A stretch of 27,620 nucleotides of DNA from a virus, in the IMG/VR virus record IMGVR_UViG_3300025120_010343, positions 1 through 27,620 of that record; one strand, written 5' to 3'. The notes beneath the pieces were generated by a model, which was not told the origin of the DNA, did no database searches, and saw only the letters and a program-made list of their open reading frames with translations. The number at the start of each line of letters is the position of its first letter. Positions within the stretch are counted from its first letter, which is position 1. Position numbers and translations under genes: made by a program. Of the stretch, positions 7,958 through 25,189 are shown one piece after another.

Positions 7958-8857
7958 TTAAGTTCCTATTGCATTACCAAATAGATACACATGCACTCTG
8001 GCCGCCACATTGTATCCTCTTTTGAATGCCTCTTCTGCCACTTTACCAGCAGTTGCAGTTTGTTCTTCCTCCCTTGCACCTGTGGGCATTATCCACACTG
8101 GCCAATCTATGCCTGCTTCTCTGAATTTCCTAACAGTGTTTTCAAGTTCTTCCCACTCTCTCCTACTTGCTCCTACTACAAATTTTAATTGTCCTCTGTT
8201 GCTACACTCGGCATATTCTTTGACATTCTCAGGTTTGATTGCTTTTTCTGTTTTCTCGCCTGACACGGTGAACAGTTTAGGACTTACACTGAAAAATATT
8301 TCTTCTGGGATATCTTTCACCCATTGTTTGAATGGTTCTGTAAGTTTCTGTGTGCCATTTGTTTCGTAAGTCATCGAACTTGGCAAGTTTGCCCTTTTTT
8401 GTAATGCTCTGTATATTCCAATACTTGCGGCCTGTCCTGTTATCATTAACGGTTCGCCTCCTGTGAAACACAAATGCTGGTGCTGTCTGGAGTTTGGATG
8501 TAGGAATAAACCATTAATGTTTGTGTCTGTTTTTAGTATGTCTACAATTTTATCTGCTAGTACCGTGGGTGTTTCGTGTCCCATTAACTTCTTAAATTTC
8601 TTTGCCCAGGTGTAACTTGAATCACAGCCCTTGTCCCATACAGGCAAGTCTTCCACCTTCTTTATACTGTCAACATCAAAGTCCTCAAATGGCAGTTCAT
8701 ATGTGGTTGGATCTGTAGGATCCTTTTGACCAAATCCATTACACTGCAGATTACAAAGGAAAAATCTTATCCATGCTGTTGGAATGCCTGTATAGTTGCC
8801 TTCACCTTGTATGCTGTGAAATATCTCCGAATAATAATATTTTTTTTCTTCTACCAT
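7958..8857 (-). CDS. queE: 7-carboxy-7-deazaguanine synthase (QueE), phage variant
   Basis: A 299-residue radical SAM protein matching QueE, which converts 6-carboxy-tetrahydropterin to 7-carboxy-7-deazaguanine. It starts with the QueE-like YSEIFHSIQGEGNYTGIPTA (9-28) and has CFTGGEPLM and the later YETNGTQ segment. The iron-sulfur cysteines are unusual: C35 and C39 are in LCNLQC, but the third, in GCDSSYTW, is C78. This gives CX3CX38C instead of CX3CX2C, an insertion of about 36 residues. The ATG overlaps a 49-aa ORF by seven bases. Together with FolE, a YhhQ-type transporter and a DpdA-like protein elsewhere in the window, it points to 7-deazaguanine DNA modification rather than tRNA queuosine only. 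Confidence 0.87.
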   Translation of the reverse strand: MVEEKKYYYSEIFHSIQGEGNYTGIPTAWIRFFLCNLQCNGFGQKDPTDPTTYELPFEDFDVDSIKKVEDLPVWDKGCDSSYTWAKKFKKLMGHETPTVLADKIVDILKTDTNINGLFLHPNSRQHQHLCFTGGEPLMITGQAASIGIYRALQKRANLPSSMTYETNGTQKLTEPFKQWVKDIPEEIFFSVSPKLFTVSGEKTEKAIKPENVKEYAECSNRGQLKFVVGASRREWEELENTVRKFREAGIDWPVWIMPTGAREEEQTATAGKVAEEAFKRGYNVAARVHVYLFGNAIGT

Positions 8858-9543: not shown

Positions 9544-10152
9544 CTATTTGAGTTTGTAAGTCTTCTGTAGTCTGTTCAGCAATAATCCGTATGCTGGTAA
9601 GAATACAAGTAGTCCCACGGCAATCTTGATCACAACCTGTGATCCTGCAATCTCCATCCAATTTAATGCCATGTACTCGTCTGCACTGTTGTTGAATGCA
9701 ACTGCAAAGAATGTGTACGTGTCAATTATGTTGGCCGCGATTGTTGATACCGCTGGTGCTAACCACCAGTTCTTGCCATACGTTTTTGATTCCCTAATGT
9801 ACTGGAATACATAAACGTCTAGCAAAGTACCCACTGCGTATGCTGTGGCACTTGCGAAACCAATTCTCATGGCAACCGATTGCGGTGCCCCTTCTGCCAA
9901 TACAACTGCGATGGATCCGATTATTGCTAATGGATAAGCCGCCGCGATTGTGGCCCTTGCTATGTGTTTACCCAATAGTCTGACAGTCAAGTCAGTCGCT
10001 ATCACTACTAATGGGAATGTGAATGCCGCCCACGTCAATTTGACACCAAGTATTTCTACTGGTATGGCCACTAACGCATTTGAAACAATGATTACTACCA
10101 CATGTAATAATACCAATTTCATCAGCATTGATTTATCTACGTTTTTGAACAT
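9544..10152 (-). CDS. yhhQ: YhhQ/VUT-family queuosine-precursor transporter (preQ0/preQ1 importer)
   Basis: A 202-residue integral membrane protein with about six hydrophobic segments. It matches the YhhQ/DUF165 (VUT_1) pattern: FPLVVIATDLTVRLLGKHIA (about 46-65), VGTLLDVYVFQYIRESKTYG (about 106-125) and WWLAPAVSTIAANIIDTYTF (128-147). Acidic and polar residues within the membrane segments (TDL, LLDV, IIDT) are characteristic. The family imports 7-deazaguanine bases such as preQ0 and preQ1. Start chosen at 10152 with TAGGAG five bases upstream. It has its own promoter and a normal leader. With FolE, QueE and the DpdA-like protein in the same window, it could supply the modified base during infection. 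Confidence 0.85.
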   Translation of the reverse strand: MFKNVDKSMLMKLVLLHVVVIIVSNALVAIPVEILGVKLTWAAFTFPLVVIATDLTVRLLGKHIARATIAAAYPLAIIGSIAVVLAEGAPQSVAMRIGFASATAYAVGTLLDVYVFQYIRESKTYGKNWWLAPAVSTIAANIIDTYTFFAVAFNNSADEYMALNWMEIAGSQVVIKIAVGLLVFLPAYGLLLNRLQKTYKLK

Positions 10153-10227: not shown

Positions 10228-10692
10228 TTATTTGTCCCAGTCTTCCCATGGGAATACGATCCAAGCGGGTACTTCGTCTTTGTTTATTTCGTATCCGTGG
10301 TAATCTACTTCGACCTTGCTAGGCTTATTGTGTATAAGTGCGGCAAATCTTATTCTGTCTTCGTGCTTGCCAAAGTTATCTAGTATGAATTGGAACGTTG
10401 CACCTGAATCATTTATATCATCTATTATCAATATTTTTTTCTGGAAGGCGAACGCTTTCTCTAGTGTTGTAAGGTTTGGCTTTGCTTGGTGATCTCTCAA
10501 CCTAATATCTAAAACCTCATGAGCAGTTTTTAATCTGTGAGATAGATAGACACCTGGTATACACCCTCCTCTGTTGATTCCTAATATTATACTAGGCATC
10601 CAATTAGAATGCACCATCTTGTCTTCTATCTGTATCAATGCGTTACGCATCTGTCCTGTGGTAAAATAATTCTTTTTAACTTCTTCGCTCAT
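10228..10692 (-). CDS. Gpt-like purine phosphoribosyltransferase
   Basis: A 154-residue type I phosphoribosyltransferase. The PRPP loop is ILIIDDINDSGAT at 87-99, and NRGGCIPG (40-47) matches the first-loop region of xanthine-guanine PRTs. The C-terminal AWIVFPWEDWD resembles the WIxxPW base-binding end of E. coli Gpt, and the length is similar (Gpt is 152 aa). Expected reaction: guanine, xanthine or hypoxanthine plus PRPP to the nucleotide. It overlaps the upstream membrane-protein gene by ATGA and sits in the unit with guaC and folE. It could salvage guanine released by DNA base exchange (inference). Purine specificity cannot be proven from sequence alone. Confidence 0.8.
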   Translation of the reverse strand: MSEEVKKNYFTTGQMRNALIQIEDKMVHSNWMPSIILGINRGGCIPGVYLSHRLKTAHEVLDIRLRDHQAKPNLTTLEKAFAFQKKILIIDDINDSGATFQFILDNFGKHEDRIRFAALIHNKPSKVEVDYHGYEINKDEVPAWIVFPWEDWDK

Positions 10693-11021
10693 ATTCCAAA
10701 ATAATAATTCGTTAAGCCTAACACTAATAATGTAATTAAAACAACGTTTAAAACTAACAATGCTCTATCATGCCATAGATATCCAACCCATGCCCAGCCT
10801 ATAGTTCCAAACAGACCAAACCACATATCCACCTGAGGCATTGTTCCAACACTTCTAGCCACCGTTGCGAACAATATAAGAAATACTGATATCCATTTTA
10901 CATACCAAGACAGGTCGCCTTTTGGTGTAACTTTCTTGATCACCCTAGAAGAATTTAACTTCTTAATTTTTTCGTCTAGTTTCTCTTTGATCGGTTCGAT
11001 GTTATTTGGTGTATTGCTCAT
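10689..11021 (-). CDS. small membrane protein with three hydrophobic segments
   Basis: A 110-residue protein with a charged, cytoplasm-like N-terminus (about 1-35) followed by three hydrophobic segments: ISVFLILFATVARSVG (about 44-59), MWFGLFGTIGWAWVGYLW (about 66-83) and LLVLNVVLITLLVLGL (about 88-103). A Pro-Gln pair lies between the first two. The order is reminiscent of small half-transporters but I cannot assign a family. It overlaps guaC by 20 bases upstream and the Gpt-like gene by four bases downstream, so it is tightly embedded between two purine genes. A purine or base-transport role is only suggested by location. Confidence 0.75.
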   Translation of the reverse strand: MSNTPNNIEPIKEKLDEKIKKLNSSRVIKKVTPKGDLSWYVKWISVFLILFATVARSVGTMPQVDMWFGLFGTIGWAWVGYLWHDRALLVLNVVLITLLVLGLTNYYFGI

Positions 11022-12051
11022 ATACCCTGTTGATTACGTTATGTGTTGTTACGAAACTTGCACACTTGGCCATGTCTTTGAGTTTTCTTGCACCAATGTA
11101 TGTACAAGCACTTCTTACTCCGCCTAGTATATCTTCTAAAGTTGGTTCAACAGGTCCTCTATGGGGCAAAGATATTAATCGACCCTCGTTGCCTCGATAC
11201 CCATCTTTACGTTTGCCATGTACTTCACGTGCTCTATCCGAGCTCATGCCATAAAATTCTACTCTGCCATCTATTACTGGCTGTTCCGACTCGTCATGTC
11301 CGGCTAACATACCGCCAATCATCACCATGTGGGCTCCGCCACCGAATGCTTTTGCTATGTCTCCTGCATGAACACATCCACCGTCAGCCATTATATGTCC
11401 ACCAACACCGTTTGCGGCGTCTGAACAGTCAACTATTGCCGAGAATTGTGGTACACCTACTCCTGTCATTGTCCTTGTGGTACATACTGACCCTGGACCG
11501 ATGCCTACTTTGACTACGTCAGCACCGTTTATAATTAGTTCTTCTACCATCTCTGGCGTTACCACGTTACCTGCTACTATAACCTTTTCGGGATATTCGT
11601 CTCTGACCTTCTTAATAAAGTCTACGAAGTTTTGATGGTATGCATTTGCAACGTCAACGGTAATCATCTTGACATCAGGAAACATAGTCAATACTTCTTG
11701 CATGTTCTTGTAATCTTGTGCTTCTGGATCCCACATAATATTTGTTCCTGTACACACTGACACCGACTGCATTCTCAATCCTGTGCCGGCGGCCGCCTTC
11801 CATTGTTCTGGTGTTGTTGTCTTTGTGATCACGGTCATCATCTTATGCTTCTGCATTTCTTTTGCCATGGAGAATGTGCCAACACCGTCCATGTTACTTG
11901 CAAATATGGGAAGGAAATCCATAACCTTGCCTGAGTTACGAAAGGTAAACTTACGTGTCATGTCGACATCTCTTCTTGAACTTAATGTAGAACGTTTTGG
12001 TTGCAACAAGACATCATCAAAATTTAATTTTGGATCAGTGTTAATTCTCAT
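11002..12051 (-). CDS. guaC: GMP reductase (IMPDH/GMPR family)
   Basis: A 349-residue TIM-barrel protein, the size of E. coli GuaC, with no CBS-domain insertion, which argues against IMP dehydrogenase. The catalytic loop GIGPGSVCTTRTMTGVG has C190, and MADGGCVHAGDIAKAFGGGA (221-240) matches the phosphate-binding region. The reaction is NADPH-dependent reductive deamination of GMP to IMP. GGAAGAGA precedes the ATG, which overlaps the upstream hypothetical gene by 11 bases. In the unit glycosyltransferase-galE-folE-guaC-gpt, it would interconvert guanine nucleotides that FolE (GTP) and the Gpt-like enzyme (guanine) also use. A phage GMP reductase is unusual, as it lowers the GMP pool. Confidence 0.9.
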   Translation of the reverse strand: MRINTDPKLNFDDVLLQPKRSTLSSRRDVDMTRKFTFRNSGKVMDFLPIFASNMDGVGTFSMAKEMQKHKMMTVITKTTTPEQWKAAAGTGLRMQSVSVCTGTNIMWDPEAQDYKNMQEVLTMFPDVKMITVDVANAYHQNFVDFIKKVRDEYPEKVIVAGNVVTPEMVEELIINGADVVKVGIGPGSVCTTRTMTGVGVPQFSAIVDCSDAANGVGGHIMADGGCVHAGDIAKAFGGGAHMVMIGGMLAGHDESEQPVIDGRVEFYGMSSDRAREVHGKRKDGYRGNEGRLISLPHRGPVEPTLEDILGGVRSACTYIGARKLKDMAKCASFVTTHNVINRVYEQYTK

Positions 12052-12388
12052 TCTCTTCCTTCTCTTTTGTTTTACAAATTTCTAACACACTTTTGTAATG
12101 TTCGTATGCTTGATTCAACGCAGGATACTTTTCTCGCATATCCATTTCGTCAAACATGTCTAACTGTCCAAAGTCGTGATTATAGGAAAATCCTGTGTCT
12201 AATGTGTCGACTGTTGCCGTTTTGACAACTACGCCTGTGTTCAAATCAGGGCCAATGTCGTCATCTATCGGATTTAACGTATATGAGAAATCACCTGTGT
12301 ATTGGATACCGTCCGAACTCATTTCTATTGCGTCCGATTGCATATTTGCTTGTTCTTTTTTTAATTTTGTTTTGCTTTTCTTAACCAT
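12041..12388 (-). CDS. acidic hypothetical protein (115 aa)
   Basis: A 115-residue protein with a short basic start (MVKKSKTKLKKEQ) followed by a long acidic, low-complexity-like region rich in Asp, Thr and Gly and a helical C-terminus ending CKTKEKEENEN. No motif recognised. The AAGGG ribosome site is very close to the ATG, and it overlaps folE by eight bases and guaC by eleven. It separates two purine/pterin enzymes, but nothing in the protein suggests the same pathway. Confidence 0.7.
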   Translation of the reverse strand: MVKKSKTKLKKEQANMQSDAIEMSSDGIQYTGDFSYTLNPIDDDIGPDLNTGVVVKTATVDTLDTGFSYNHDFGQLDMFDEMDMREKYPALNQAYEHYKSVLEICKTKEKEENEN

Positions 12389-13094
12389 GGCCCTTCATAC
12401 TCATACAAATTTTATAGAACTCGTCCCTTGTTGCCGGATCTTCTTTGAACGCACCTAGCATTATTGCAGTTGTCATGTCTGACTCATGCTCTCTTACACC
12501 TCTGTGTGTCATACAATGGTGTTCCGCTTTTACTACAACTGCAAGGTTCTCTGTTTTTGCATATTTCTTTAATTCATCTGCAATCTGTGTTGTCATCTCT
12601 TCCTGTATTTGTGGTCGCTCTACAATGTGATGCACAATCCTATTAAATTTACTCAATCCGATCACCTCTCCGTTGGGAATAATACCTACCCATGCCTTGC
12701 CAACAATGTTCTGGAAGTGATGGGCACACGTTGATCTAATTGATATTGGACCACTGGTATACATACTCTTGTAACCCATGTTAGGGAAACTTGTAACCCT
12801 CGGTGCTGGTTTGAATCTGCCTCCGAATGTTTCTCTGATGTACATCTTTGCCACACGTTTTGCAGTTTCGTTTGTGTTATGATCGTTTTCTGTGTCGATA
12901 ACAAGACTGTCTAACACCCCTTGTAATTTTTCCTGTACTTCTGCCTGTAATAGATCCATCTCACCATCTTCTATGTATTCGGAGATGTTGTCATTGGAAT
13001 GGAATCTTTTTCCTGCTTTCTTAAGTCTTTCTTTTATCTTTTTGCTGATTGGCCCTTCCGGTACCCAACTGTCTTTTAAAATATCTTCGCTCAT
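12381..13094 (-). CDS. folE: GTP cyclohydrolase I
   Basis: A 237-residue FolE, converting GTP to 7,8-dihydroneopterin triphosphate, the first step to tetrahydrofolate and to 7-deazaguanines. Zinc ligands are C123 and H126 (in RSTCAHHF) and C194 (in EHHCMTHRGV). GIIPNGEVIGLSKFNRIV (138-155) and VERPQIQEEMTTQIADEL (158-175) are the conserved substrate and oligomer segments. An extra N-terminal ~45 residues precede the family core. The ATG overlaps the galE stop (TAATG). With queE in the same window it most likely feeds preQ0 synthesis. Distinguished from QueF by the CxHH...EHHC zinc site and overall length. Confidence 0.92.
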   Translation of the reverse strand: MSEDILKDSWVPEGPISKKIKERLKKAGKRFHSNDNISEYIEDGEMDLLQAEVQEKLQGVLDSLVIDTENDHNTNETAKRVAKMYIRETFGGRFKPAPRVTSFPNMGYKSMYTSGPISIRSTCAHHFQNIVGKAWVGIIPNGEVIGLSKFNRIVHHIVERPQIQEEMTTQIADELKKYAKTENLAVVVKAEHHCMTHRGVREHESDMTTAIMLGAFKEDPATRDEFYKICMSMKGHG

Positions 13095-17614: not shown

Positions 17615-17806
17615 TGTCGCTCTAGCCCTTACTATGGCGTCCTTGATCATTAGTTTAGTTCTTTTTAGTCTACTAAGGATATCCTTGCTTTCGGTACTCC
17701 TGTCCTTACGTCTGTCCTTGGTAAGTTGTGTTACCTTTTTGTCGAGATATGCGTGTTCTTCTTCTAGTTTCTTCAGTTTTTTACTTCTTCTCTTTGTTAG
17801 TCTCAT
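17603..17806 (-). CDS. DUF465/YdcH-like small helical protein
   Basis: A 67-residue, highly basic, all-helical protein. The pattern LEEEHAYLDKKVTQL (about 14-28), then SRLKRTKLMIKDAIVRAR (about 45-62), matches the DUF465/YdcH family (L..EH..LD..I..., then LKK.KL.LKD.I). These form antiparallel helical hairpins; the function of the family is poorly known. AGGAGG lies five bases before the ATG. It overlaps the radical SAM gene by 26 bases and ends the clamp-dpdA unit. Confidence 0.65.
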   Translation of the reverse strand: MRLTKRRSKKLKKLEEEHAYLDKKVTQLTKDRRKDRSTESKDILSRLKRTKLMIKDAIVRARATLTK

Positions 17807-18971
17807 TTTCTCCTCCTAGTTGTTGTAGTTCTGGTAATACATCAAAAAGTTTTTGTCCTCTTAATCGGTCTAATATTGCCATTCTTTTTAAGAACTCGTC
17901 TATGTGTTTTACATTATTTAGATTTTGTTCTAAGAATTGTTTGGTTTGTATCAAACTTTGCTTTAATCCACCAGAAAGAATATTGTTATGTTTTTCTTCC
18001 TGCAGGAACGGTCTATTTAGGAAATTTTTAATATCGCTGATACATTTCTCCTTCATAAATCTAGGAGCATATATAGGATCTAAATAACTAGGATCGGTCA
18101 CCAATTGGAACCATATTCCTCCAAATGCTATTCCGCAGTTTTCTATGTAATTAAATATTTCGTTTAGCCTTGTCATGTTAAGCCATTGTATAGTTGTGTT
18201 TAAAGATACTCCTCGACCAATGTTCCTTAGATTTTTGTCTACGGTGTTCCAATCACTAGGATACCTGATGTACCTCGCCAGGTCTTCAACTGCATCTACA
18301 GACACGTTGTATGAGACACTCTTAAAATTTTGTCCTATTTCTATAAACTTTTTATTGATGTTCGTGGCATTGGTTGTAAAGATAAGTTCTACCTCCTTGC
18401 TACGCCCACTTGAAACAATCTTGTTGATGTAGTCTAGGTTACGTTTTATGATTGTAGGCTCTCCTCCGGTCATGAATACCCTCTTCACGTAAGGAAGCCA
18501 TTGATCTAATAGTTCCCATGCGCCATCGTCTAGCTCTATTACTTTTTGTGTCGGAGTGTCAATCCAATCCTCTTCGGGGTTGTCAAGTATCTCACCTGCG
18601 ATCTGACTGCTCCAATCACTGATACACATTCTGCATTGAAGATTACATAAATTGCCTAGTCGTAGGTCTAGGTAAAATGGTTGCTCCATCTCCTTGTTAT
18701 GCTTTGCACCTGCCACATGATGTGAATATATTTCGTTGCTATGCTGTCTTAGACTACTATAACCTCTGTCCTCTTTCTTCCAACATATACTACAACCTTT
18801 GTCACGAACATTGTTTAACATGTTTTTTTGTATGTTTTTTAGTTGGTTAGAGTTCCAATATTGTTTTTTTGAATTTAATTTTATTTTGCCTGTGTATGCA
18901 CAACAAGGACTTATTATTTGTGGAGTTACAAATGCATGGACAAATGGCAAAATACAAAAATTATCTGCCAT
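17781..18971 (-). CDS. radical SAM protein with extra N-terminal cysteines (twitch-like)
   Basis: A 396-residue radical SAM enzyme. The SAM cluster motif is CNLQCRMC with C109, C113 and C116, followed by FMTGGEPTI (GGEP 169-172). Extra cysteines at C6, C23, C24, C60 and C63 come before the cluster and may bind an auxiliary cluster, as in twitch/SPASM proteins. The substrate is unknown. It starts five bases after the DpdA-like stop, and the two are coupled; it could act on the same DNA base, on a tRNA, or on a peptide. The DUF465-like gene overlaps its end. The radical SAM fold is sure, the chemistry is not. Confidence 0.85.
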   Translation of the reverse strand: MADNFCILPFVHAFVTPQIISPCCAYTGKIKLNSKKQYWNSNQLKNIQKNMLNNVRDKGCSICWKKEDRGYSSLRQHSNEIYSHHVAGAKHNKEMEQPFYLDLRLGNLCNLQCRMCISDWSSQIAGEILDNPEEDWIDTPTQKVIELDDGAWELLDQWLPYVKRVFMTGGEPTIIKRNLDYINKIVSSGRSKEVELIFTTNATNINKKFIEIGQNFKSVSYNVSVDAVEDLARYIRYPSDWNTVDKNLRNIGRGVSLNTTIQWLNMTRLNEIFNYIENCGIAFGGIWFQLVTDPSYLDPIYAPRFMKEKCISDIKNFLNRPFLQEEKHNNILSGGLKQSLIQTKQFLEQNLNNVKHIDEFLKRMAILDRLRGQKLFDVLPELQQLGGENETNKEKK

Positions 18972-18976
18972 ACCTT

Positions 18977-20425
18977 TTACTCGAATAAAGAACTAAAATT
19001 GTTTGTGCCCTTACCACCACCTGTGGCTCTAGCCCATCTGTTGCCTCTTATGTCTGCCAGGTAACTTGATGCGTTTGAGATCACGTCCATCGGCTTCTCA
19101 CTTGTAAACACTTCTTCTACCAATGTGTTAAAGTACAGTATGTTCCTAGGAACGTAAATGCTTGGCTCATCGGTCTTGTCACTTGCTTTTGTTTTACGCC
19201 AATGTTTCACTTCTGGTCTGTATTTTCTCGATTCTATGTCGTTTAGATCGTTTGCTATCTGTATTGCTCTAATTTGGTTGTATACATTGTGTGCCATCAT
19301 TAGTACATAACTGAAACTGTCCCAACTGGTCGCCCCAATCTTGCCATTCTTATTGACATCCTGCTCACCATACCAACACACGTCTTTCATCTTCAACCTA
19401 CGTCCTATGCCACTGTCAAATGGAAATTGTATGTCTGATCCTTTCAGTGTTTTATCATCCGGCGCCTTGTCCATAACAAATGACCATCTATCAGGGGTAA
19501 ATGAATTATGTGTGTAAACTAAACCGTTTGCAGTTGATAAGAATGCAGATGCACTGTCAAAACTTATTGTGAAGTTAGGATTGATATGTTTCCTAACTTG
19601 CCTCTGTACCTGTGTAAGATAACAACCCCAATCCATCTGTGATGTGCCAAGTACGTGCATCCAATCCTTGCCATCTAGTTTCTTCTCATCTCTCATTATT
19701 ATAAGTCTTTTCAGCATGACTTCCATATCACACATGTTGATACCGCCCATGGCCCAGCCTTCGAATTCAAAGTCTTTTACTGCGTCATACCATATCTGTG
19801 CAGTGTTCCAGTCATCACCCTGTAGCACGTTCAATAGTTTTGTTTGTCCTAGCCTGTTCTTTTGGAAGAACTTGTTGTTGTATATCGTTCCGTCTAGTGT
19901 GTCTTTGAAACTTGTTAATCCTGTTTTAGGTGAGTTAAGATCATCCGCCGCCCATGTTGGCACGTCAAGTGTCATTGCCCAATCACTGGTTAGTTCTAAC
20001 CAATTAAGTATATCTGATCTTACTTTGTTTGCTTTGTTACCTTCAAAATCTTTCCAATCAAACTTGATTACACCTTTTCCTATCTGGTATCCACCCGAGT
20101 CACCTACTATTGTGCTGAACTTCCTATCTCTGTTGACGAACATGTGATCTCTCTCATTGACTTTGCCCATGTCCAGGCAGGCGTGACCTGCCGAGTAAAG
20201 TGCTGTGGGATAGGTGAACATTCCTTTGTCTGGATTGATAAAATTCAATCCTTCGACGCCATTCTCAAATCCTTGTGGGATTCTCTCTTCTGATATGTGT
20301 TTGCCTTCTGAAACTCTCTGCTTACTGATAAACGTATTGTAGAAGTTTGAAATAGCAGGCAAAAACACTGCGAAGTCTCTGCTCAACTTCCCTAAGTGTT
20401 CTTGCTTACCATTCTGTGTCGTCAT
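18977..20425 (-). CDS. dpdA: DpdA-like DNA guanine transglycosylase (TGT-family paralog)
   Basis: A 482-residue TGT-fold protein. Family signposts in order: VGDSGGYQIG (107-116, base-binding D109, like DSGGFQ of TGT), LDVPTWAAD (153-161), LNVLQGDD (198-205, like the VQG loop), WAMGGI (224-229, like AIGG), HVLGTS (257-262) and SFDSASA with D290 at the position of the TGT nucleophile. The C-terminal zinc CxCxxC of tRNA TGTs is not present. This supports a DpdA role: exchanging guanine in DNA for preQ0 or a relative. The C-terminus reads TNNFSSLFE, closely resembling the polymerase end (TNTFNKLFDF). It directly follows the sliding clamp gene (TAATG). Confidence 0.82.
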   Translation of the reverse strand: MTTQNGKQEHLGKLSRDFAVFLPAISNFYNTFISKQRVSEGKHISEERIPQGFENGVEGLNFINPDKGMFTYPTALYSAGHACLDMGKVNERDHMFVNRDRKFSTIVGDSGGYQIGKGVIKFDWKDFEGNKANKVRSDILNWLELTSDWAMTLDVPTWAADDLNSPKTGLTSFKDTLDGTIYNNKFFQKNRLGQTKLLNVLQGDDWNTAQIWYDAVKDFEFEGWAMGGINMCDMEVMLKRLIIMRDEKKLDGKDWMHVLGTSQMDWGCYLTQVQRQVRKHINPNFTISFDSASAFLSTANGLVYTHNSFTPDRWSFVMDKAPDDKTLKGSDIQFPFDSGIGRRLKMKDVCWYGEQDVNKNGKIGATSWDSFSYVLMMAHNVYNQIRAIQIANDLNDIESRKYRPEVKHWRKTKASDKTDEPSIYVPRNILYFNTLVEEVFTSEKPMDVISNASSYLADIRGNRWARATGGGKGTNNFSSLFE

Positions 20426-21162
20426 TATTGCGCCTGTGCTGGTATGATGTATTGATACTTGCCCAATCCTGAATCAACGGAGACCTGCATCGCACCCTCG
20501 TTAGAGAAGTGTAATGTGACCTTTGCGGAATCAGATAGTTTAAGTATTTGTAGCACCTGTCCTACTGGCCAACTCCAACCTTTGTTAAGTGTTCCCTTAA
20601 CGTCGGTTGCGAACACAAACTCACCACCATGCGATGCCTGATCACCGAAAGTGAAAATCAAGTTTCCATCCTCAGTTCTTACAACGAATGAATTGTGTTC
20701 TGTGTTTGCAGTTGCCTGGAAGTTGAATCTTTGCACACTTGCCACGCTTGGTTCAATCTCAACGTCCCACTTAACACCTTTAAACTTCACTGTCTTAAGT
20801 TTCTCGTTGATAATCTCAGCGTTCATGAATCTGTAGTCGTTCTTAAAGTCACCCTTTTCATTCTCGAAATGGATTCCTGTAGGAACCGTTGCTCCAGCTC
20901 TCTCACCGGACAACACAGTTATGTTCGCCTTCTCCTTGTACTCCGGACACTTCAAGTGTATGTCTAGTTTGCCCATCTGAGGCATACCAAACGTTCCTGT
21001 CATCTCCGTCTGTGGCTTGTGGAAAGACCCTTGTAGGATAACAGATCTGTCTTCAGCCATTGAATCGATGACAGTCTCTTTGTCGTCGCCAGTGATTTTT
21101 ACAAGATCCAAGAATCCCAGTCCATGCGTATGTTTAACGATGTCTTTTAAGATGTCTATCAT
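20425..21162 (-). CDS. sliding clamp (gp45-like DNA polymerase processivity factor)
   Basis: A 245-residue beta-rich protein with repeated strand patterns. The clamp-like end reads KVTLHFSNEGAMQVSVDSGL then GKYQYIIPAQAQ, like the final strands of T4 gp45-type clamps. The length fits (T4 gp45 is 228 aa). The protein would form a trimeric ring that tethers polymerase and other proteins to DNA. It is the first gene of the clamp-dpdA-radical SAM unit, just downstream of the polymerase-methyltransferase unit. The gene symbol is left open because the similarity is from fold pattern and context, not a single diagnostic motif. Confidence 0.72.
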   Translation of the reverse strand: MIDILKDIVKHTHGLGFLDLVKITGDDKETVIDSMAEDRSVILQGSFHKPQTEMTGTFGMPQMGKLDIHLKCPEYKEKANITVLSGERAGATVPTGIHFENEKGDFKNDYRFMNAEIINEKLKTVKFKGVKWDVEIEPSVASVQRFNFQATANTEHNSFVVRTEDGNLIFTFGDQASHGGEFVFATDVKGTLNKGWSWPVGQVLQILKLSDSAKVTLHFSNEGAMQVSVDSGLGKYQYIIPAQAQ

Positions 21163-21171
21163 AATGTTTGT

Positions 21172-21200
21172 ATTGTATAGTATATTTAGACCTTAGTCTA
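21172..21200 (-). promoter_or_regulatory. probable sigma70 promoter before the clamp gene
   Basis: Minus strand: TAGACT (21200-21195), 17-base spacer, TACAAT (21177-21172). Nine bases separate the -10 from the ATG at 21162. The match is weaker than at the other promoters, and the interval leaves only two or three bases of leader. The -35 overlaps the methyltransferase stop. Confidence 0.5.
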
Positions 21201-21987
21201 GTGTTATTTCAGAAACTTTATACACCACAGGATTTTGTTTACCAGGATTCTTGAATATGGCATAACTGGCTCCTGGTCTGAACTGATTCATCTCAACTAC
21301 TTCATATCCCTCGTCCTCGATCATCTGGATCATAGCAGTCTTGGTATTGTAGTTCCAATAGCCTCTTTTTGCAAGATCTAGTTCTTGATCATAATGGCAG
21401 TCAGCGTATTGAATAAATCCGTAGCCTCCTGGTATCAGCACTCTCTTGATGTCATGCAGATACTGTTGCACATGTACTTGTGTGAAGAATACAAATGTGT
21501 CCCAACTGAATACAAAATTACAACTCTTCTGTGGTATGTTGCTACATTCTGTGTTCCTTGTACGATAGAACTTTAAGTACTTGTGATGTTTGCGATTGAA
21601 CATCTTCCTAATTGTTTTCTCCCTGTCTAGCACGTCCAAGAAGTAGTTAAGTCGCCATGCTCTGAAATCCATTGAAAACATACCATTACCCGGTCCTATC
21701 TCCAGGCTGTTGTATTTGCTTGACCTTCCAAACTGGAATATTTTACTCTGCAAAAATCTTTGTAAAGTAGGATCTATGGTGGGGCTCACTTTTTTTTCTG
21801 CTAGATCCTTCTCGAACCATTCCGGTGTCTTGTCTAATCTATTAATGACAGACTTGTTGTTTGCGTCAACAGCCAATGCCACGTCTTTTAGTATCCTTAG
21901 ATTTGTGTTTATCAACTCTTGTAGATCTTCCTTTTTGACCTTCTCTAATTTTTCAATCAATAGTTTTATTTCTTCTATGCTTAACAT
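21193..21987 (-). CDS. class I SAM-dependent methyltransferase
   Basis: A 264-residue protein. The SAM motif I is LEIGPGNGM at 95-103, and a GGYGFIQYAD segment sits in the place of the central strands. The N-terminal ~85 residues are helical (LLIEKLEKVKKEDLQEL) and differ from a bare MTase. Substrate unknown; proximity to the polymerase and clamp genes suggests DNA, nucleotide or replication-protein targets, but none is shown. The gene starts three bases after the polymerase stop, with no own promoter visible. Confidence 0.8.
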   Translation of the reverse strand: MLSIEEIKLLIEKLEKVKKEDLQELINTNLRILKDVALAVDANNKSVINRLDKTPEWFEKDLAEKKVSPTIDPTLQRFLQSKIFQFGRSSKYNSLEIGPGNGMFSMDFRAWRLNYFLDVLDREKTIRKMFNRKHHKYLKFYRTRNTECSNIPQKSCNFVFSWDTFVFFTQVHVQQYLHDIKRVLIPGGYGFIQYADCHYDQELDLAKRGYWNYNTKTAMIQMIEDEGYEVVEMNQFRPGASYAIFKNPGKQNPVVYKVSEITLD

Positions 21988-21990
21988 AAT

Positions 21991-24654
21991 TTAAAAATCA
22001 AAAAGTTTATTAAATGTGTTTGTGGTCTCTGTGCTCTGCACGTCCCAATCCAACACACCTATAAGGTTATCGATCTTTTGATCTAGTATAGTGCTTTCCA
22101 TTGCATCGCCATCAAATGGAAGTTCCTTGAACCATTCTGGAATACGTAATTCATCAACTGGGTATGCAATACTCGTGTAGCCCAATGGATTGTTTTTAAG
22201 TTTGCATACAATTACTTTTGCACCATCTGTTATTGGCATGCTGTATTTGTCACCATACATGTCCCTGCACCTGTTCCAATTCATGCTGGCTCTTACGTGT
22301 CCAGGCATGTTGGCTTTGCCTTTGGCTTCTTCCGCCGCTGTGTACTTGGTCATGTTGTTTGCTCTCTTGGGAGAACCTTTCTCCCAACCTGGCCTTGCTT
22401 TGAAATCTGCTCGAAATTCACTGATCTTTTCTAAAACTTCTTTCTCATCTTTACCTTGCAGAACCATGTACAAGAGATCACTTAAGAAGTCCTGTACAAA
22501 TACAGGTGTGTCTGAACGTTTTAGGTCAAGGCCCATTGCTTTCATCTTACCTTCTTTGCCTTCTGTGTCAGTACGTGTGCCTTCTTTGTCATAATACAGC
22601 ACAGCGTATCTTTTCTTTGTGATAAACAAACCTTTAGATGCAACGAGCTCACGTCCAGCCGCTATCACTTCACCTCTTGTGCTTGGCGTGTGAAATGCTT
22701 TGGTCATAAATGCTTTGAATGATCCGTTAACCTCATCTGCTATTCTGTCGTATAAGCCCACCACGGAATCCTTCGTCCATGGAATCGTGCCATTGCTAAT
22801 TTCTTTTTGTAATGTTTTATACGCAGAAAAGTAAACGGAATCTGTGTCTCCGTACACAATACTTTCACCTTTGTGATCATACTTGCCTGCAATAATCTCA
22901 TTAGTTTTACTTGCCATGTGTTTTGTTATACATCTTCCTGTCAGTGTAACAGATTGTCCTATCCTGATGTCAAAAAATCTACATCCTGGGTTAAGGATCG
23001 CTCCATATAGACTGTTTAGGTTAATTTTCTTAACAAGTTGTCTCTTATCCCAATATTCTCTTTCTATTTCGTTGTCACCACAATCACGCATCTTTTTCTG
23101 CATTTCTTGTCTTTCTGCATACCAACGTTTTAGTAGTCCTGGGATGATTGCTTCATGCTCGTAAGTAAATATTGTGCCATTGGCACTCAACATCCATTTG
23201 TTGTTGCCGTCGAATACAACTTCATAAAGTTGTGCGGCACTCATACGCACACTGGTCTTGTCTTCCCAGTCAACAATTATCTCAGTGCCTTTCTCTTGAT
23301 TCATTACTGCTTGATACTCCCAACTGCCAAACTGACTGTCCCAAGCCGCCGCGAATGATTTCTTGGCATGTTTCGCCCTGTTGATCTCTGCTGAGGTTAT
23401 TACAGGTCTTATCTGACCTACAATGGTCTCTGGTCCCATGTTCAGTGCTCTAATCACACTAGGATACAGTGAGTTTATGTCAACAGATCCTATCCAGTCA
23501 TGTATTCCTTTTTGTGGTGTCGCCACGTGGGCTCCTGCCGCCGGTTGGTTTTCCTCACCATCTTTTTTGTACTTCCTGCCAGGAACCTGCATTCCACGTC
23601 TGTGTGCTTCGTTCACGATTGCCTGTTCTGTAACTGCGACTGCACCCATTGTTGTCTGTAGTAGTACAGTGTTTTGGTGTGCGATCTCATTGGCAAGTTC
23701 TATGAATTTTAACTTCTTCTCAAGTTTGGCCAGCAGTGCGGTGTCCTGTCTGTTGTACTCTATGAACAACCCAAAATCGTTTTTGTACAAGTGATCCAGT
23801 GAGCCCTCATACACAGTTTTACGTTCGCCTAACTCGTGTTCACCTATTGCGTCTAGTCTGAAACTGTGTCGTTCTTCATATGTGTACTTCCTATATAATT
23901 CTAATAGATCTAAATGCACCCTACCTACAAGGTCAAAACTTAATTGCTCCCTACCGTACTTTTCAAATACTCTCTTCTTTGGCTTCTCGCCCCAGAAACA
24001 CAATCTTCTTGTGTCGTCACCACTTAGAACTTTTTGTATTCTTCCCACAGTGTAAGGGATATCATAACCTTCACTGTTCCAACCCGACAGTATGTCAGCA
24101 TCATCTACTAGTTGTAAGAACGCATCTAGCATGTCTTTTTCTTTCTCAAACAACATAGTGTTGTCGAATCTTTTCGTAAGTTCTTCGGCATCTTTCATAC
24201 TGATTGTTTTTGGTGGTACAGCAAATGTGACCAGTTGATCCGTCCAGCTCATGTAACAACTTATGGCAGTTATGGGCATGAACGGATCATCCGTTGTTGA
24301 ATAACCTCGATCTGGATCGAAGTCTACCTCAATATCAAAGAACATAACGTTCAATTTTGGAGTTTCCTTACCTAAGTAATTCTCTTCCAAACACCTGAAC
24401 ACGGGATTGATATCGTGTTCATAAAGTTGCTTGTTTGATCTTATACGTTGCTCTTTTATGAATTCTTTATTTGTTTGGCACATCACTCTCTGCAAAGGTT
24501 CACCGGTCATGCCTCGGTGTTTGCCCCTTGCGTCTGGATGGTAGAACACGTATCTTGCGTCGTACTCCACGAACACACGACCTTTCTTTGGGTCACGTTC
24601 TACAACGTATATCTTGTCCTCGTCTTTCTTGTATAATGCGTCTATGTAACTCAT
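21991..24654 (-). CDS. family B DNA polymerase (T4 gp43 type)
   Basis: An 887-residue replicative polymerase with proofreading. Exo I is FFDIEVD (D107, E109), Exo II ILSGWNSEGYDIPY (188-201) and Exo III EYNRQDTALL (D304). Motif A is VDINSLYPSVIR (D392), motif B KKINLNSLYGA (542-552) and motif C YGDTDSVYF (601-609). The C-terminus TNTFNKLFDF resembles the sliding-clamp-binding tail of T4/RB69 gp43. The frame reaches 24723, but the ATG at 24654 overlaps the upstream stop by ATGA, so I prefer it. All catalytic carboxylates are present. Length is close to T4 gp43 (898 aa). Confidence 0.95.
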   Translation of the reverse strand: MSYIDALYKKDEDKIYVVERDPKKGRVFVEYDARYVFYHPDARGKHRGMTGEPLQRVMCQTNKEFIKEQRIRSNKQLYEHDINPVFRCLEENYLGKETPKLNVMFFDIEVDFDPDRGYSTTDDPFMPITAISCYMSWTDQLVTFAVPPKTISMKDAEELTKRFDNTMLFEKEKDMLDAFLQLVDDADILSGWNSEGYDIPYTVGRIQKVLSGDDTRRLCFWGEKPKKRVFEKYGREQLSFDLVGRVHLDLLELYRKYTYEERHSFRLDAIGEHELGERKTVYEGSLDHLYKNDFGLFIEYNRQDTALLAKLEKKLKFIELANEIAHQNTVLLQTTMGAVAVTEQAIVNEAHRRGMQVPGRKYKKDGEENQPAAGAHVATPQKGIHDWIGSVDINSLYPSVIRALNMGPETIVGQIRPVITSAEINRAKHAKKSFAAAWDSQFGSWEYQAVMNQEKGTEIIVDWEDKTSVRMSAAQLYEVVFDGNNKWMLSANGTIFTYEHEAIIPGLLKRWYAERQEMQKKMRDCGDNEIEREYWDKRQLVKKINLNSLYGAILNPGCRFFDIRIGQSVTLTGRCITKHMASKTNEIIAGKYDHKGESIVYGDTDSVYFSAYKTLQKEISNGTIPWTKDSVVGLYDRIADEVNGSFKAFMTKAFHTPSTRGEVIAAGRELVASKGLFITKKRYAVLYYDKEGTRTDTEGKEGKMKAMGLDLKRSDTPVFVQDFLSDLLYMVLQGKDEKEVLEKISEFRADFKARPGWEKGSPKRANNMTKYTAAEEAKGKANMPGHVRASMNWNRCRDMYGDKYSMPITDGAKVIVCKLKNNPLGYTSIAYPVDELRIPEWFKELPFDGDAMESTILDQKIDNLIGVLDWDVQSTETTNTFNKLFDF

Positions 24655-24932
24655 TGTATGAATACTTTGTATAATCCTATTGTGTTCATTATTGTGAACC
24701 ATCCTGTAAGACATGCAATCCAAACTAACCTACGTCTGAATCCTGCCCAACACATGGTACTAGATCCTAGCCAGTACAATGGGAATACTACACTCATTAT
24801 AGGCGATGGTGATGTGAAAGTCAATACTGCAGATCCGGCCACTGTTACTACTACAGAAAATAGTTCTAGATAGAATGCTGTTGAATCTGTGTTGTAACTG
24901 GTTACCCAAAATTCTTTGAGTAATTTTATCAC
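24651..24932 (-). CDS. small membrane protein
   Basis: A 93-residue protein with a GTG start overlapping the upstream stop (TAGTG). It has three hydrophobic segments: FYLELFSVVVTVAGSAVLTF (about 20-39), IMSVVFPLYWLG (about 45-56) and RLVWIACLTGWFTIMNTIGL (about 68-87). It sits between a DNA-binding protein gene and the polymerase gene and overlaps the polymerase ATG. It may anchor replication components at the membrane, but nothing in the sequence proves this. Confidence 0.72.
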   Translation of the reverse strand: MIKLLKEFWVTSYNTDSTAFYLELFSVVVTVAGSAVLTFTSPSPIMSVVFPLYWLGSSTMCWAGFRRRLVWIACLTGWFTIMNTIGLYKVFIQ

Positions 24933-25189
24933 TAAAGTTTTCCGGCTGTGTTTAGAATGCTCTCCAGTGTGTCCATTTCGTCAGCGATGTTCTGGTAGTT
25001 GCCCTTGTGTGCAACTGATATCGCCTTGTTGATCAGTGCTGGTTTCAATTCCAATTCCTCTGATATTGCTTTTACTGTGTCTTTCAATCCACCTTTCAAG
25101 TCCTCTACCTCACCTAGTACCTGTGAGCCCTGTGAAATGATCTGGATCAATTTCTGCTTTTCAGCATCGTTAAAGTTTCTTACTGCCAT
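24932..25189 (-). CDS. DsbA-like dsDNA-binding protein (late transcription factor type)
   Basis: An 85-residue, all-helical protein. The central segment GLKDTVKAISEELELKPALI is the part I associate with the T4-like cyanophage DsbA family (double-stranded DNA-binding protein near late promoters), and the size is right (T4 DsbA 89 aa). The match is from pattern memory. AGGAGA lies six bases before the ATG. It heads the unit leading to the polymerase. A 14-bp palindrome lies in its promoter, consistent with regulated expression. Confidence 0.7.
   Translation of the reverse strand: MAVRNFNDAEKQKLIQIISQGSQVLGEVEDLKGGLKDTVKAISEELELKPALINKAISVAHKGNYQNIADEMDTLESILNTAGKL

Follow-up and report, generated by a model that had tools for sequence, protein, structure and literature searches.

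A DpdA-like enzyme with a putative sliding-clamp-binding tail, encoded next to the clamp gene in a virus genome

In IMG/VR virus record IMGVR_UViG_3300025120_010343, positions 1 to 27,620 (this whole stretch of 27,620 nucleotides (nt) is called the window below), a gene for a protein resembling the phage DNA guanine transglycosylase DpdA is situated in a block of minus-strand genes. They are transcribed in the order family B polymerase, methyltransferase-like protein, a protein of 245 amino acids (aa), DpdA-like protein and twitch-domain radical SAM protein (Table 1). The first-pass annotation had placed the dpdA-like gene directly after a probable clamp gene with a one-base TAATG overlap and, indeed, the stop codon of the 245-aa gene and the dpdA-like start codon have one base in common: CAATAATGACG. 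The translated DpdA-like protein ends in GGGKGTNNFSSLFE and the polymerase in STETTNTFNKLFDF, so that the terminal peptides quoted in that annotation, TNNFSSLFE and TNTFNKLFDF, are exact. For the polymerase, the ATG at 24654 is the most likely start codon; the listed open reading frame (ORF), opening with TTG, begins at 24723.

Table 1. Genes and sequence elements of the window, in the order of minus-strand transcription.
Feature	Position	Strand	Support
Family B DNA polymerase (gp43-type), 887 aa	21991..24654	-	PF00136, PF03104; phrog_262 E 1e-195
Polymerase C-terminal TNTFNKLFDF, presumed clamp-binding tail	21994..22023	-	Tail type by analogy with T4/RB69 gp43 (PMC2988020)
Methyltransferase-like protein	21987-21193	-	
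Sliding clamp gene, 245 aa, PCNA/gp45-type predicted fold, phrog_12062 (unknown function)	20425..21162	-	AlphaFold2 and Foldseek
One-base TAATG overlap of clamp stop and dpdA start	20425..20425	-	Shared A at 20425
dpdA-like gene, 482 aa, predicted tRNA-guanine transglycosylase fold, third phage DpdA-like family	18977..20425	-	AlphaFold2 and Foldseek
DpdA C-terminal TNNFSSLFE behind a flexible GGGKG linker, putative binding tail for the sliding clamp	18980..19006	-	
Twitch-domain radical SAM protein (NF033640), immediately follows dpdA	17781-18971	-	
FolE, GTP cyclohydrolase I (first step to preQ0)	12381..13094	-	PF01227 E 3e-47
preQ0/preQ1 (YhhQ-type) transporter	9544..10152	-	PF02592; NF008406 E 1.4e-56
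QueE-like radical SAM enzyme	7958..8857	-	phrog_2076 E 7.5e-54; weak QueE NCBIfam matches

The identities of the clamp and of the DpdA-like protein needed testing, since the sequence libraries gave no named family for either: the clamp-like protein has no match in Pfam or NCBIfam and a sole PHROG assignment, to phrog_12062, while the DpdA-like protein has none in Pfam, PHROG, NCBIfam or PF01702, the models for tRNA-guanine transglycosylase (TGT) and DpdA sequences. Fold comparison was therefore needed, and both proteins were modelled with AlphaFold2 from alignments of contig homologues. The clamp monomer (predicted local distance difference test score, pLDDT, 91.5) has PCNA as its top Foldseek matches in the PDB (E 4.7e-12, template modelling score (TM-score) about 0.7, 13-15% identity), a predicted PCNA/gp45-type fold that bears out the presumed clamp. 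The top 50 PDB matches of the DpdA-like model (mean pLDDT 86.7) are all tRNA-guanine transglycosylases (E 2.1e-8, probability 1.00). The TGT-like active-site patterns DSGG[FY]Q, LD.P and IS[FY]D..S are kept across the family (here DSGGYQ, LDVP and ISFDSAS), in which D109-G112, Q114, D154 and D290 are invariant, residue roles being assigned by analogy with TGT. No TGT or DpdA sequence model recognises the protein, and it is therefore filed as DpdA-like by fold and context, in a diverged family; the name given in the first-pass annotation is thus upheld by the predicted fold and not by the sequence libraries.

The context includes genes of 7-deazaguanine supply: FolE, a QueE-like enzyme and a preQ0/preQ1 transporter (Table 1). 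Of 26 related records, 23 encode FolE. The dpdA of Vibrio phage 2.275.O has FolE, QueC and QueF-like genes in its vicinity, the only instance of QueC seen. Because the TGT fold and active-site patterns occur with these genes nearby, the natural reading of the model is a phage DNA guanine transglycosylase with a 7-deazaguanine role in DNA, where it probably puts a protective base in the place of guanines. The radical SAM protein encoded immediately after dpdA could have the inserted base as its substrate. A GMP reductase gene and a purine phosphoribosyltransferase-like gene are located between FolE and the transporter (window positions 10228-12051).

The C-terminal tail is conserved in the relatives of the DpdA-like protein. 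Complete copies in 80 contigs (77-98% identity) all end in [TK]NNFSSLF[ED], some with an added GG or GA. The peptide NNFSSLF is constant in all 68 copies, with codons that vary synonymously. At 55-61% identity and lower, the motif follows a variable glycine-rich linker and often has an acidic extension behind it, about 25-45 residues long, which gives it an internal position comparable to that of the clamp epitope that still works inside a T4 gp55-gp33 fusion (PMC2988020). The homologues of phage PA5oct (41% identity) and Vibrio phage 2.275.O (28% identity) carry the tails NSNSFNSLFD and LNNNDLFGW, respectively; contig scans using either of these two DpdAs alone as the query yielded no viral contigs. 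Comparison of C-termini with polymerase tails thus traces the tail in homologues of related phages down to about 30% identity.

A profile built from polymerase tails only was scanned over whole DpdA sequences: the best-matching site was within the C-terminal 60 residues for 139 of 145 DpdA homologues and for 28 of 31 non-redundant ones (<80% identity). A score of at least 12 in the last 60 aa was reached by 96 of the 145 DpdAs, against 7 of 4584 other same-strand ORFs. AlphaFold2 leaves residues 469-482 of the window protein disordered (pLDDT below 50), which places the tail outside the fold instead of buried in it. The DpdA-like protein presents the features typical of a gp43-type tail: the peptide is hydrophobic-acidic, its linker is flexible, and it resembles the tail of the cognate polymerase. 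In T4, the hydrophobic-acidic clamp tails of gp43, gp55 and gp33 are interchangeable (PMC2988020).

The resemblance to the cognate polymerase changes from lineage to lineage. Pairs of DpdA and polymerase tails include VLNEFFEF/ALQAFFEF (locus L150), VMNEFFEF/TMQQFFEF (L151), GFGAFFEE/TLSTFFEF (L186), MFSSLFG/LFDTLFG (L148) and LNNNDLFGW/ANNTDLFDW (Vibrio phage 2.275.O). Tails from the same contig were more alike than permuted ones (P = 1e-4 with 31 lineages, 5e-5 with 17 and 0.0016 with 11), values which are optimistic because the lineages share ancestry. DpdA and the polymerase are, however, unrelated proteins, and common descent alone gives no reason for their tails to co-vary. In PA5oct, the DNA polymerase (L081:1608-6834) is annotated as two pieces around a Hef-like homing endonuclease gene.

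Upstream sequence sufficed for reading the gene order at 204 loci. At 201 of these, dpdA is preceded by the clamp gene in the same orientation, within 150 nt in 133 cases, and TAATG occurs at the clamp stop in 98 of the 204. The three loci without an upstream clamp are a diverged Phosso-like pair and a homologue in a Roseovarius metagenome-assembled genome (MAG). In Phosso, the dpdA neighbour, annotated as a structural protein, was considered as a clamp and rejected; the clamp gene is elsewhere, at 149 kb, next to those for polymerase, FolE and QueE. Blocks of dpdA, clamp and polymerase are also found in two MAGs labelled Rickettsiales and Pacearchaeota (L220, L222), probably phage contigs binned with host genomes.

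Clamp-like tails recur in two further DpdA families. BLAST revealed no similarity between the window protein and the DpdA2 of T4-like phages (nt-1), and profile comparison gave no convincing link either. Viral contigs and reference phages supplied 60 distinct DpdA2 tails, of which 51 are of the gp43-like type, mostly SLEDLF-x. DpdA2 and gp43 tails pair as TTLDELFE/PSLDDLFE in ACP17, NSLDDLFG/SSLEDLFGW in Marzo, ASLDSFFD/STLDDFFS in BUCT-ZZ01 and QSLEELFG/SSLESLFG in X1. Exact matching is not universal, since one DpdA2 group ends in SLPEDF and the single gp43 read from that group in TLDDLF.

The other family is typified by the DpdA of Enterobacteria phage 9g, for which insertion of preQ0/G+ into DNA has been verified, with up to 27% of deoxyguanosine replaced (PMC6884629). 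BLAST detected no similarity between it and the window protein, and profile comparison established no convincing link. In 9g, Seurat, BA3, EC151, PSASB_03, BcepGomr, RHEph06 and Yong-L2-223, dpdA stands beside clamp and polymerase genes, at times separated from them by one or two small genes; in Dp-1 it is a few genes from dnaN. Clamp identity is here taken as annotated (beta-type); a search with the Pfam beta-clamp model PF02767 missed the annotated 9g clamp itself and so could not tell which phages are without a clamp. All 14 sampled 9g-type DpdAs end in [LF]F, 12 of them exactly at the C-terminus, against a background of 31 in 3911 ORFs. In 11 of the 14, a Q stands two to four positions ahead. 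The ends follow an otherwise hypervariable stretch and resemble the bacterial beta-clamp motif, consensus QL(S/D)LF (PMC9690074). The form of the tail thus differs by family: NxFxxLF with PCNA-like clamps (marine and jumbo phages), SLEDLF with T4-like gp45 and QxxLF with beta-type clamps.

On the evidence of sequences and predicted structures, clamp tethering of phage DpdA, by putative binding, is strongly supported: the tail is present in relatives, is predicted to be disordered, co-varies with the polymerase tail and has counterparts in two other DpdA families. A clamp-tethered DNA guanine transglycosylase, the reading proposed in the first-pass annotation, is in our judgement the best explanation of the dpdA-like gene, and a likely one. 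The occurrence of clamp-like tails in three sequence-divergent DpdA families suggests that phages modify their DNA while riding the replication machinery, and we consider it fairly likely, with slightly less assurance, that phage DpdA generally operates tethered to the clamp, with tails matched to each phage's own clamp type and base exchange being part of the replisome tool-belt.

Several observations weigh against reading the gene as a clamp-tethered transglycosylase, in addition to the shared ancestry of the lineages. For the match to TGT, the global TM-score is modest, at 0.4-0.5. The tail is absent from the Roseovarius MAG homologue, from the DpdA2 of nt-1, KVP40 and pf16, and from the DpdA of mycobacteriophage Typha and Cellulophaga phage phi3ST:2, the latter two also being without an adjacent clamp gene; homologues L146, L189, L191 and L195 retain weak motifs only. 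Since some DpdAs do without it, the tail is not essential to the chemistry. The Phosso DpdA retains merely KIVEGLF at its end.

In the mechanism that we propose, the TGT-fold enzyme would take guanine out of DNA and insert preQ0 or another 7-deazaguanine in its place. This base would be supplied by FolE and the QueE-like enzyme of the phage, together with the host pathway or import by the transporter. The N-x-F-x-x-L-F-acidic end, carried on a disordered linker, would copy the tail with which the polymerase holds the clamp and dock in the same hydrophobic pocket, making DpdA a clamp client that may be carried along newly replicated phage DNA and modify it there. Physical binding, a DNA rather than tRNA substrate in the window phage and timing with replication are what we infer.

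Timing is where the strongest alternative enters: the tail may bind the clamp mainly to recruit DpdA to phage DNA, for instance on left-over clamps or late-transcription complexes, and not to time its action with the fork, which we regard as possible but rather unlikely. T4 clamps serve late transcription too (PMC2988020), and for the alpha-glucosyltransferase of T4, which binds the gp45 clamp, clamp binding is reported not to be the main reason why alpha-glucosylation predominates, the share of modification being set by expression level (PMC13216743); replication coupling should, therefore, not be assumed. The block of polymerase, clamp and dpdA suggests co-expression with replication proteins, yet it fits both readings. 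It is improbable that the tail is a generic hydrophobic packing or oligomerisation element, clamp-like by chance or convergence. The motif is short and TGT enzymes are active as dimers (PMC6884629), but the tail is predicted to be disordered, follows a hypervariable linker and tracks the partner polymerase tail, and its form follows the clamp type in three families. Equally improbable is a tRNA-modifying enzyme linked to the clamp by operon position only: although the fold match is to tRNA enzymes and no sequence family names the protein DpdA, a clamp-binding tail would make little sense on a tRNA enzyme, and the setting of the gene, with replication genes and FolE/QueE, is similar in phage 9g, where DpdA puts 7-deazaguanine into the DNA (PMC6884629).

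To our knowledge, there is no account of the way in which phage DpdA reaches phage DNA, of the reason for partial guanine replacement or of its timing in infection. A clamp-binding tail on DpdA would offer a simple answer to all three. It could also help in picking out, by sequence, diverged DpdAs and other modification enzymes or nucleases that ride the clamp from phage genes that have no annotation.

Further proteins carry similar tails. Downstream of dpdA, related small proteins that by eye resemble MvaI/BcnI-type restriction endonucleases (L209:11512-12138; L181, ~10399; L123, ~8752) have the tails STFQNLFAYDN, NNTTLFE and RRNLFEGL, respectively, and are possible clamp-riding nucleases. 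A GIY-YIG/T5orf172-like protein (L200:10218-10805; weak Pfam match) has NEFNSLFDVEES near its C-terminus. A family of 134-146 aa proteins of unknown function (L116:13148-13549; L095, ~12566) ends in THFDSLFEVIQ or EMFYSLFEEQE and is a candidate clamp client. Separately, window positions 24932-25189 encode a small protein with weak similarity to DsbA, the T4-type late transcription DNA-binding protein.

A search of the open-access literature, with subscription papers and preprints outside its scope, found no paper linking DpdA with the clamp, in line with the first-pass annotation, which knew of no description of such a tether for DpdA; it also found no case of a base-exchange enzyme with tails of the T4 gp43, gp55 and gp33 type. 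The parts are known in kind, while their combination and its recurrence over three enzyme families appear to be new.

Among known systems, the tails of T4 gp43, gp55 and gp33 are, like that of DpdA, short hydrophobic-acidic C-terminal peptides on a variable linker. Phage 9g shares with the window phage an enzyme of the TGT superfamily, FolE and other preQ0 genes nearby and a dpdA beside clamp and polymerase genes, and its DpdA has the C-terminal clamp-like motif LQDLFDE. It differs in the length of DpdA (317 aa vs 482), in the clamp (beta-type by annotation vs PCNA-type) and in the tail (QxxLF-like vs NxFxxLF). The DpdA2 of nt-1 and other T4-like phages is likewise TGT-related, has preQ0 genes alongside and is tailed in most homologues (SLEDLF-type), but nt-1 dpdA2 lies apart from its clamp-loader and polymerase genes, and nt-1 and KVP40 are without the tail. 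T4 alpha-glucosyltransferase was considered as sharing the DpdA-type tail and rejected: its C-terminus, FKEQFDIITK, has no gp43-like tail. It is also an unrelated enzyme acting on another base. Nevertheless, it is a phage DNA-modifying enzyme on the replication clamp, with binding shown for T4 and putative here, and the clamp-tethered DpdA would extend that precedent to a whole class of DNA hypermodification.

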